Origin: Candidatus Altimarinota bacterium
GTDB lineage: Bacteria > Patescibacteriota > Gracilibacteria > Absconditabacterales > Absconditicoccaceae
Reading direction: 5' to 3'
Length of the DNA stretch: 64,000 nt
Assembly: GCA_021734475.1 (NCBI GenBank)
Contig: JAIPIU010000001.1
Coordinates: forward strand, 62,001-126,000
The position numbers and the translations under genes were made by a program. Position 1 is the stretch's first letter, and each line of letters starts with the position of its first letter. The notes beneath the pieces are model-generated. The model did no database searches, was not told the DNA's origin, and was given only the letters and a program-made list of their open reading frames with translations. This document shows positions 39,900 through 42,846 of the stretch, piece after piece.

Positions 39900-41324
39900 T
39901 TAGAATCTGATTTCATCTGCTTTTATTCTCCATTGTTTCATACTATCTCTATCTCTTATAGTTACAGTTCCGTCTTGTATACTTTGATTGTCTATGGTGA
40001 TACAGTACGGAGTTCAGATTTCATCCTGTCTGCGATAACATTTTCATATATTACCACTATCGTCAAACTCACACATATAATCCTGACTTAATTTATCAAA
40101 AATTTCTTTAGCCATATTTACTTGTTCTTCATCTTTTTTAACCAAGGGTATTACAGCAAATTTTATTGGTGCAATATTTTTATTGAATCTAGCAACTACT
40201 CTTGTTTGTTCATTTCAGTTTGCATCGCTATATTTTTCTTCATCATAAGCATCTATCATAGCTGTAAGTATTGCTCTAGTCAAACCCCGGCTTGGTTCTA
40301 TACAATGTGGTACATATCTTTTGCCAGATTGAGGATCAGAATATTGTAAATCTTTTCAGCTAAATTTTATATGTTGATTGAGATCATAGTCTGTTCTATA
40401 TGCAATACCTTGTAATTCTCATCGTCCTCGTGGAAATTTATATTCTACATCACATGTTCACTTACTATAAAAACTTAGTTCATCTTTATCATGATCTCTA
40501 AATCTTAGTTTTTGCTCTTTGATTCATATTTCGTTTATCCATCGTTCTTTACTTTGTTTTTTCCATTCTTCAAAACACTCTAATCAAATCTTTTCATCAT
40601 TTTCTACGAAATATTCTATCTCCATCTGATAAAATTCCCTCACTCTAAACATAAAATTTCCTGGAGTGATTTCATTTCTAAAAGCTTTTCATATCTGGGC
40701 AATACCAAATGGTATCCTAGATCTAGTAGTATCCAATATATTTTTGAAATTTACAAATATTCCTTGTGCAGTTTCAGGTCTAAGATAGATATCAGTACCT
40801 TGTCATTCGATAGTTCCTTGTTCGGTTTTAAACATTAGATTAAATTGCTTTGGTTCTGTCCAATCAAAAGATCAACATTTTGGACATTTGATTTTAAATT
40901 GATTTATAAATTCTGTCTGTTGCTCAAAAGATCGTGCTCATACTGCTATATTATCAACTTTGATTCTTTCATTTATTTGTTCCAGATTTAAGTTATTTTT
41001 TTCTATATATTCTTCTATTAGTTGATCTGCTCTCAATCTACTTTTACATTTTTTACAATCTATCAAAGGATCTGAAAATCATCAAACATGACCTGAAGCT
41101 TCCCGTACTTTGGGATTCATAAGTATCTGTGAATCTAGTCAAATTATATCATTTCTTTTTTGTACAAAAAACTTCCATCGATTATTTTCGATATTTTTTT
41201 TAACTTCTACACCATATGGTCATAAATCTCGGGCATTAGCCAATCATCCATAAATATCACTACCAGGATATGCAAATCATCTTCTTTTTGCCCACGCAAC
41301 AATATTATCCAAACTAAACGTCAT
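39900..41324 (-). CDS. glyS: Glycyl-tRNA synthetase (alpha2 type)
   Basis: The 474-residue class II enzyme is the dimeric GlyRS type. Visible blocks: [54 protein letters not shown], paired zinc-type Cys (CKKC, CPKC), motif 2 [40 protein letters not shown] and CIEPSWGLTR. Trp in NAWDLG and GWGEL is CGA; Trp in KVWEASG and EPSWG is CGG. GGN-reading and UGA-reading glycine tRNAs should both be charged by this enzyme, so it is central to the recoding. A C-terminal anticodon domain is present ([21 protein letters not shown]). No nearby tRNA gene is seen. Confidence 0.95.
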
Positions 41325-41360
41325 AAATCTATAATTAAAAAATTAAAAGCCTTTTTCCCC

Positions 41361-41394
41361 GTCATTCCGGCGAGATTATTTTGCAGCCGGAATC
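41361..41394. repeat. Dispersed palindromic repeat, copy 7
   Basis: GTCATTCCGGC ... GCAGCCGGAATCC upstream of glyS. Confidence 0.85.
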
Positions 41395-41405
41395 CAAACT
41401 AAGTG

Positions 41406-41424
41406 AGTCCCGCTTCAGCGGGAT
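41406..41424. repeat. GC hairpin
   Basis: TCCCGCT-TC-AGCGGGA perfect short inverted repeat directly after repeat copy 7; role unknown. Confidence 0.6.
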
Positions 41425-41536
41425 AAAAAAATCAATTACAAATATATACTAATAATAAAATTCTCTCCACTTTCAATTCGTTTTAACCTTTTAACGCTTC
41501 AATGTTTTAAAATCTAATAAAAAAGCTTAATAAAAT

Positions 41537-41565
41537 TTGACAAATAGACTTAGCTAGATTATAAT
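41537..41565 (+). promoter_or_regulatory. Full-consensus promoter of structured RNA 1
   Basis: TTGACA (41537-41542), 17 bases, TATAAT (41560-41565). Both hexamers and spacing are ideal, and no ORF follows for 800 bases. Confidence 0.8.
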
Positions 41566-41571
41566 AGTTAA

Positions 41572-41990
41572 ATAGATCTTTCTCCAATAATATTAAACAG
41601 TATAGATTGTTTAATGCTATAGGAAGACGGTCATTGTAAAAACAACTCACCATTGCAATTTTGCATTAGAGTTTATGTTAAACAGTATATTGGATAAAAT
41701 ATCGCTGTCTGGCTTTTATCGTATACAACAAATGCTACAAAAACAAAAAATAAAATGAGCCTAATCTATTTATTATTTAATTAGCATACAAATTGTTGTT
41801 TATGATCAGATTGATTATATTTTGTTTTAACGTATTTGTTGTAGCATAGGTAAGTATATTTACAAGCCGACAATATACCGTTTTAGGCTTACGGATCCCT
41901 ATTGTTCCAAATTGATACAAAATTTATCTTTTGGTATGGTAAAAAGGTATACTAGTGTGTTGTCTCTCTGACCTCTTCCGAACCCTAAAA
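41572..41990 (+). ncRNA. Candidate structured RNA 1 (about 415 nt)
   Basis: The gene-free region behind a consensus promoter has extensive pairing. A 5' hairpin (ATTAAAC 41592-41598 / GTTTAAT 41609-41615) is followed by a closing stem GGAAGAcGGTCA (41622-41633) with TGACCTCTTCC (41969-41979). Inside, GTATATTG (41685-41692) pairs with CAATATAC (41871-41878), nested with TGTCtGGCTT (41706-41715) and AAGCCGACA (41864-41872). ACAACAAAT and ATGCTACA can each pair with the TATTTGTTGTAGCAT segment, as alternatives. Length suits RNase P RNA or tmRNA, but I cannot find the conserved RNase P core or a tRNA-like end with CCA. Boundaries are estimates. Confidence 0.6.
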
Positions 41991-41996
41991 AAAGTA

Positions 41997-42024
41997 TTGA
42001 CAAATATTGATTTGTGGTTATACT
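41997..42024 (+). promoter_or_regulatory. Promoter of structured RNA 2
   Basis: TTGACA (41997-42002), 16 bases, TATACT (42019-42024). The AAAAAGTATTGACAAATATT block is shared exactly with the promoter at 57675. Confidence 0.75.
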
Positions 42025-42030
42025 ATCGAC

Positions 42031-42217
42031 GTCATCTTCTCTCAATAAAATATATTAGAATTTTAAAAATCTAACATATATTATAGGAAGAAGGTATCCT
42101 AGCTTTGTACAGATTGTTTACAATCTATCTGGTAATCCACTCCAAAGGATTATAAAGTTCATCACCAGCTTGGTTTTGGCACCAGTATTACAGCGCTAGC
42201 CTCTTCCTTTTTTTGTG
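42031..42217 (+). ncRNA. Candidate structured RNA 2 (about 185 nt) with own terminator
   Basis: Organised like RNA 1: a 5' hairpin (TTAGA/TCTAA), then TATAGGAAGAaGG (from 42082) closing with CCTCTTCCT (42200-42208), followed at once by seven T. Inside are AGATTG-TTTA-CAATCT and TAATCC/GGATTA hairpins, the latter nested within CTGGT/ACCAG, and CTAGC/GCTAG just inside the closing stem. No ORF of note. Together with its promoter this strongly suggests a stable small RNA. It does not show the SRP GGAAGC-type loop or a 6S-like single rod. Confidence 0.65.
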
Positions 42218-42293
42218 CCTTTATTTTTGGCCTTCTATTCATAAGTTTTTATATCTTAATAAATAGTATATTCTAAAACACTTATAAAAACAG

Positions 42294-42323
42294 ACTCTCC
42301 TTTTACAAAAGGAGAGTTTTCTT
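42294..42323 (+). terminator. Intrinsic terminator
   Basis: ACTCTCC / GGAGAGT stem with a TTTTACAAAA loop followed by TTTTC; between RNA 2 and the HIT gene, possibly a backup stop for the RNA transcripts. Confidence 0.75.
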
Positions 42324-42384
42324 ATTGAAAATTTTTTTCAAAACCTTAGATATAATTTATGATTTATAATTTACGATAATTTAA

Positions 42385-42846
42385 ATGTCTGATTGTATCT
42401 TTTGTAAAATTACAACATGAGAAATTCCATCAATAAAGTTGCGAGAAGATGATAATTTCTTAGCAATATTAGATGTGTTTCCAAATACTAAATGAATGAC
42501 ATTGGTTATGCCAAAAAATCATTATGATTCAGATTTATTTGAAATAGATGATCAAGAATTTTATACCAAATATCTACTAGCTAGCAAAAAGGTAGTTGAA
42601 ATACTCAAAAAATGATTATGAGTAAATAGAGTAGCTATGGTAATGGAATGAATGTGAGTAGATCATGCTCATATCAAATTATATCCATTACATTGAGTTT
42701 GACCAGAATGGGAAGCTCATCGAGCGAAACAAGAAATATATTTTGATCAATATGAATGATATGTTTCTACTCAATTATGACCAAAAGCAAGTCCAGAAGA
42801 TTTACAAAAAATTGCTGATGAAATTAAATCCAAAAACTGACTATAA
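42385..42846 (+). CDS. HIT-family protein with altered HxHxH motif
   Basis: The 153-residue protein starts CIFCKITTGEIPSIKLREDD, typical of HIT nucleotide hydrolases, and continues ILDVFPNTKGMTLVMPKNHY. The His triad reads DHAHIKLYPLHG at about residues 93-104: the first two His are kept, the third is Lys. The nucleophile (middle His) remains, so some AMP-lysine or Ap4A-type hydrolysis is possible. The tail (YFDQYEGYVSTQLGPKASPEDL) fits the bacterial branch of the family. It precedes aspS by 22 bases. Confidence 0.9.

Follow-up and report, generated by a model that had tools for sequence, protein, structure and literature searches.

Two gene-free RNA loci of an Absconditabacteria genome as candidate members of a structured RNA family absent from Rfam

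Positions 41537-42214 of the window, by which we mean the whole analysed stretch of 64,000 nucleotides from Candidatus Altimarinota bacterium, carry two transcription units, one after the other, that contain no protein gene, which raises the question of what their RNAs (RNA1 and RNA2) might be. On balance, we lean towards stand-alone, trans-acting structured non-coding RNAs, with no expression data, partner or activity to hand, and we lean to a like degree towards an RNA family that is absent from Rfam and, as far as detected, restricted to one SR1/Absconditabacteria-type family. Conserved folds, common ends and a stand-alone gene structure are shown by comparison; transcription is inferred. 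The novelty would lie in the class of RNA, large structured non-coding RNAs of unknown function being already a known kind.

Both units have a promoter of their own (Table 1), and no ORF of 60 or more amino acids (genetic code 25) is found between the glycyl-tRNA synthetase and HIT-family genes (41324-42385). RNA1 and RNA2 share a leader hairpin, followed by TATAGGAAGA and a closing CTCTTCC, and the body of each starts with GGAAGA and ends with UCUUCC; the RNA1 body stops at 41979 and lacks a U tract. An earlier note, made from sequence alone, had claimed that each RNA has its own consensus promoter, that both are gene-free transcripts of matching architecture (hairpin, common sequence and CTCTTCC close) beginning with a small hairpin, and that RNA2 ends in a U tract. 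The claims about promoters (12/12 and 11/12), architecture and U tract (TTTTTTT) held; gene-free transcripts held as regards the absence of ORFs, transcription itself being inferred without expression data; and the initial hairpin holds in the window and is optional in copies from genera g14 and g3. Upstream of the RNA1 promoter (41355-41430), a GTCATTCCGGCGAG...GTCCCGCTTCAGCGGGA sequence with a palindrome resembles a dispersed repeat.

Table 1. Features of the two RNA units and their flanks (positions in the window)
Feature	Position	Strand	Basis
Glycyl-tRNA synthetase gene	39900-41324	minus	flanks RNA1 side
RNA1 promoter, TTGACA-17-TATAAT	41537-41565	+	sigma-70 consensus match 12/12
RNA1 leader hairpin, AUCUU..CC..AUA arm and UAU.GG.AGA.GGU arm	41576-41632	+	model R1; covariation, 8 sequences
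RNA1 body, 358 nt, closed by P1 GGAAGA.GGUCA/UGACC.UCUUCC	41622-41979	+	fold z; homologues in g1, g14, g3, g19
RNA1 hairpin with A-rich loop (AAAAACAAAAAAUAAAAUGAGCCUA..) and 3' bulge	41724-41800	+	model R3; helices checked per sequence
AGCCUAA, proposed kissing partner of 41883-41889	41758-41764	+	read from sequences; unproven
UUAGGCU, proposed kissing partner of 41758-41764	41883-41889	+	read from sequences; unproven
RNA2 promoter, TTGACA-16-TATACT	41997-42024	+	sigma-70 consensus match 11/12
RNA2 leader hairpin, AUCUUCUCUC arm and GGAAGAAGGU arm	42034-42095	+	model R1; covariation
RNA2 body, 122 nt, P1 GGAAGA.GG/CC.UCUUCC	42086-42207	+	fold z; three g1 genomes aligned
RNA2 conserved core, CUGGUAAUCC..GGAUUAUAAAGUUCAU..CACCAG	42129-42185	+	likeness to segment after RNA1 in G027 (g19)
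U tract after RNA2 (TTTTTTT)	42208-42214	+	sequence
Terminator-like hairpin between RNA2 and HIT gene	42292-42319	+	12-pair stem; terminator scan
HIT-family gene downstream, syntenic marker	42385-42846	+	Pfam HIT, E 1.9e-9, code 25

The whole RNA1 transcript has a fold z of -3.6, with none of 100 dinucleotide shuffles as good, and the whole RNA2 transcript one of -2.2 (4/200 as good). In the minimum-energy folds, the terminal UCUUCC pairs with GGAAGA to form P1, closing a multi-branched body, and the same GGAAGA strand is predicted to be able to pair with the leader instead. By predicted energy, P1 is more stable than the leader-hairpin state by 6.7 kcal/mol in RNA1, 1.0 in RNA2 and 3.4 in RNA3, a third RNA of the same genome. 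The leader covariance model R1, with members in g1, g14 and g3, scores the leaders of RNA1 (41570-41635) and RNA2 (42028-42099) at 71 and 67.6 bits, and R3, a model of the A-rich-loop hairpin of RNA1 from the same three genera, scores that hairpin at 60.8 bits, each of these sequences being itself in the model. The AGCCUAA/UUAGGCU pair within RNA1 is kept in three g1 species; its kissing partner is not seen in g14 RNA1, and kissing as a universal property of RNA1 was dropped for that reason. In the L005 locus (G002), the apical loop of the RNA2 leader hairpin is enlarged by an insert of about 75 nt, and the base of the hairpin is kept.

Covariation across related genera, on which the inference of a functional folded RNA rests, had been proposed by the earlier note as a check, and it supports the leader, the RNA1 hairpin, and the RNA3 hairpin and kissing helix. 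In the leader hairpin (eight sequences), 92.6% of the cells are paired and both sides have changed in 8 of 22 pairs; its covariation score of 0.334, compared with 0.190 in shuffles, is equalled by none of 500 shuffles, and sliding the register lowers the paired cells to 35-53%. The RNA3 core is 90% paired with both sides changed in 14 of 25 pairs, again with 0/500 shuffles as good by the main measures. Its long-range kissing helix between loops is paired in every sequence (100%; both sides changed in 4 of 6 pairs) through the variants ACUAGC/GCUAGU, ACUAGA/UCUAGU, AUUAGC/GCUAAU and GCUAAU/GUUGGC. The structures of the leader and RNA3 were derived from the very sequences that were scored. The lower helices of the RNA1 hairpin are rebuilt from other base pairs across g1, g14 and g3, the versions by species being ACAACAA/UUGUUGU, UAUUGG/CCAAUA, CUAGAU/AUCUAG, UAAAAG/CUUUUA and GGGG/CUCC, each carrying a bulge of 4-7 nt on its 3' side. 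RNA1 and RNA2 are thus not products of chance but real, conserved folded RNAs, their transcription being inferred.

The 1.17-Mb genome contains exactly three copies of the sequence TATAGGAAGANGG, each at the start of an RNA, namely RNA1, RNA2 and RNA3 (contig 1). Relatives of RNA1, RNA2 or RNA3 are found in g1, g3, g14 and g19, all of one family, and further g14 members were found in HIT-gene neighbourhoods. R3 detects G027 (E = 0.001) and G035 (E = 0.026) of g19, both upstream of the HIT gene; since g19 contributed nothing to the model, RNA1 homology extends beyond the genera from which it was built. Of 353 genomes in the class, at least 9 gave R3 matches for RNA1; they belong to a single family, and strict filters missed g19. 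Such patchiness fits an accessory role better than a universal or essential housekeeping one. A pattern scan across GTDB picked up SR1-type genomes that include candidate division SR1 bacterium LacPavin_0818 and CG_4_9_14_3_um_filter_40_9 and Candidatus Gracilibacteria bacterium S5_H10; credible matches are all from SR1-type or uncultured genomes. Matches in Brachyspira, Melioribacteraceae, Thermodesulfobacteriota and Rhodobiaceae were put down to chance by their sequence context and low R1 scores. Viral contigs gave a single pattern match, apparently by chance inside a gene (R1 17.8 bits, E 0.24), and no match to the RNA2 core pattern.

RNA1 in G027 is followed by GGUAAUCCAAACCCAAGGAUUAAGAAAGU, which resembles the RNA2 core with a score of 33 against a null maximum of 29 (1000 shuffles); this likeness is weaker in other sequence pairs, and in some it is not significant. 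The RNA1-RNA2 tandem is likely to be ancient, the RNA2 part being moderately supported. Homology between the RNA2 and RNA3 cores has no support in the sequences by eye and was rejected. The subtypes RNA1, RNA2, RNA3 and g4 RNA (of genus g4) have common termini and different interiors by sequence comparison; their common origin, which rests on the termini only, is likely and not proven. Constant ends with variable interiors would also be expected of remnants of MITE-like mobile elements, with GGAAGAAGG...CCTTCTTCC as terminal inverted repeats by chance, and the tandem copies in g4 could be cited in support. Against this very unlikely explanation, the copies are preceded by promoters, their interiors covary as RNA, their number per genome is low and their position is kept across genera.

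Several RNA1 and RNA3 copies in g14 and g3 start, by eye, at GGAAGAAGG right after the TATAAT or TATACT box, and in the L079 and L073 tandems the leader hairpin is the sole linker between RNA1 and RNA3. The small hairpin is therefore probably better regarded as an optional leader or linker, and since the leader can be absent in g14 and g3, GGAAGA and UCUUCC most likely mark the two ends of the functional body. We propose that the promoter-proximal leader hairpin would form first during transcription and hold the GGAAGA strand until the 3' UCUUCC has been synthesised; an exchange of strands would then let P1 close the molecule and free the leader for trimming. The leader would be dispensable where transcription starts at GGAAGA. 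The common termini may be recognised by one processing enzyme or binding protein, and the finished RNAs may act in trans as scaffolds of an RNP or RNA assembly, not as regulators of the next gene. The exchange between leader and P1 is an argument from energies predicted by model, and its order of folding is inferred.

In g1, g3, g14 and g19, RNA1 is found upstream of a HIT gene, whether or not a partner RNA accompanies it, which might suggest a cis-regulatory leader or attenuator of that gene. This is very unlikely, because a U tract and a terminator hairpin lie between RNA2 and the HIT gene, and because a protein-sized ORF fills the same place in several HIT loci of g4, g7 and g15. Moreover, RNA3, in the same genome, ends against a convergent tRNA gene, and the g4 RNAs face a thioredoxin-like protein gene that converges on them, so that neither leads a gene. 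Riboswitches and leader RNAs belong to the mRNA of the gene that follows them, which does not fit the terminator signals and convergent genes seen here.

Stand-alone RNAs might still be divergent forms of known ones. No Rfam family matches the window RNAs at its gathering threshold, and raising the limit to E = 10 brought nothing credible, only chance-level matches to unrelated families, which were discarded. RNase P RNA and tmRNA resemble RNA1 in length range and in having a closing helix, but both are encoded elsewhere in this genome and neither model scores the window RNAs, which excludes these identities. RNase P RNA (RF00010), expected as a single gene per genome and at times diverged in CPR genomes (PMC8172020), has no match in the window or the region at E up to 10 and lies at C3:280915-281255 (95.9 bits); tmRNA (RF00023), marked by a tRNA-like domain and a tag reading frame, and of which ARAGORN finds none in the window, lies at C8:10879-11340 (69 bits, above the cut-off).

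A divergent housekeeping RNA, 6S or SRP, could be entertained, as SRP RNA is unmatched in the region and in the class sample including this genome (0/36 genomes for RF00169, 0/25 for RF01854), and 6S RNA (RF00013), unmatched in the region, has only a weak candidate of 25.7 bits, below the cut-off, elsewhere in the genome (G000:C1:83316-83466; L137:3817-3967, minus). RNA2 is like 6S RNA in being stand-alone, with a transcript near 184 nt whose ends pair mutually. However, its predicted fold is a branched body instead of a rod with a bubble, its leader hairpin precedes the closing helix, and it has no 6S score. Three subtypes coexist in one genome, the RNAs are patchy whereas SRP RNA is undetected sample-wide, none has an Rfam score, and the predicted folds lack both the SRP domain IV hairpin and the single 6S rod with a central bubble, all of which makes a 6S or SRP identity very unlikely. 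As SRP RNA is undetected in all sampled relatives, its absence says nothing about the present RNAs. The earlier note had named an Infernal match to a known family as a refutation, and none occurred; its claim that features of tmRNA, RNase P, SRP and 6S are lacking held by the Rfam scan, ARAGORN and fold comparison, and its reading of a new class or a very divergent known RNA is supported, with the new class favoured and transcription still inferred. SRP RNA is possibly missing or unrecognisable in this lineage. The 6S candidate lies directly downstream of a gene for a small RRM-like RNA-binding protein (L137:4075-4437, minus; by sequence alone).

Much larger RNAs occur in the sister genus g4, where G031 has tandem RNAs of 817 and 788 nt with a similar leader and P1, G068 two copies, and G069 one full and one shorter copy; they range from 680 to 820 nt and have the termini of the window RNAs. 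Five sequences give 207 predicted pairs with 89% of the cells paired, and both sides have changed in 90 of these pairs, compared with 42 on average and at most 53 in shuffles, counts that are optimistic because the structure was taken from the alignment that was scored. R1 scores the g4 leaders weakly (27.7 and 24.4 bits), and no Rfam 15 family gives a credible match to the g4 RNAs. Their kinship with RNA1-3, resting on the termini and these weak scores, is probable without being proven.

ROOL and GOLLD, two large RNAs whose function is unknown, are held by kissing loops and have a disordered loop inside (PMC12286853). The present RNAs are comparable to ROOL, GOLLD and OLE as large bacterial non-coding RNAs that have many branches and kissing loops (PMC12286853), and self-assembling RNA-only multimers of the ROOL/GOLLD kind would be consistent with the g4 tandem RNAs of 680-820 nt with the same termini, the covarying loop-loop helix of RNA3 and the long A-rich loop of RNA1. 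On the other hand, there is no evidence of intermolecular contact, the bodies in the window are just 122 and 358 nt, and neither the window nor the g4 RNAs match ROOL, GOLLD or OLE credibly in a scan of all Rfam 15 families. The window RNAs also differ from these in lying beside host housekeeping genes, not in phage, and in having subtypes of very different length with common termini, the smallest body being 122 nt. Multimers are thus possible but unlikely. Equally doubtful is a bolder reading of a superfamily of 120-820-nt RNAs with one interchangeable terminal module (leader strand, GGAAGA and UCUUCC), whose members would co-assemble through kissing loops and intermolecular exchange of identical terminal strands into RNA-based or RNP particles in SR1/Absconditabacteria.

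The genomes of SR1/Absconditabacteria are small. On the preferred reading of stand-alone, trans-acting RNAs, such RNA takes up about 0.7 kb in this one and about 1.7 kb in one of g4; a strongly promoted, conserved, gene-free RNA in a small genome points to an important, undescribed RNA function. The constant ends around a variable core (GGAAGA...UCUUCC plus leader) offer a handle for finding further members, and the same handle would serve in testing a conformational switch in RNA biogenesis. Two other loci bear some of these marks. A leader-bearing RNA of about 190 nt in g14 (G024, L138:2489-2556, minus) has a core unlike RNA1-3; it starts with GGGAGAAG, which is able to pair with the CUUCUUUC of its other end. 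In G032 (L084, reverse complement, 149-450), an element that is bounded by GGAAGAAGG...TTCTTCC and has a promoter of its own is filled inside with TTGCTTTG-like repeats.
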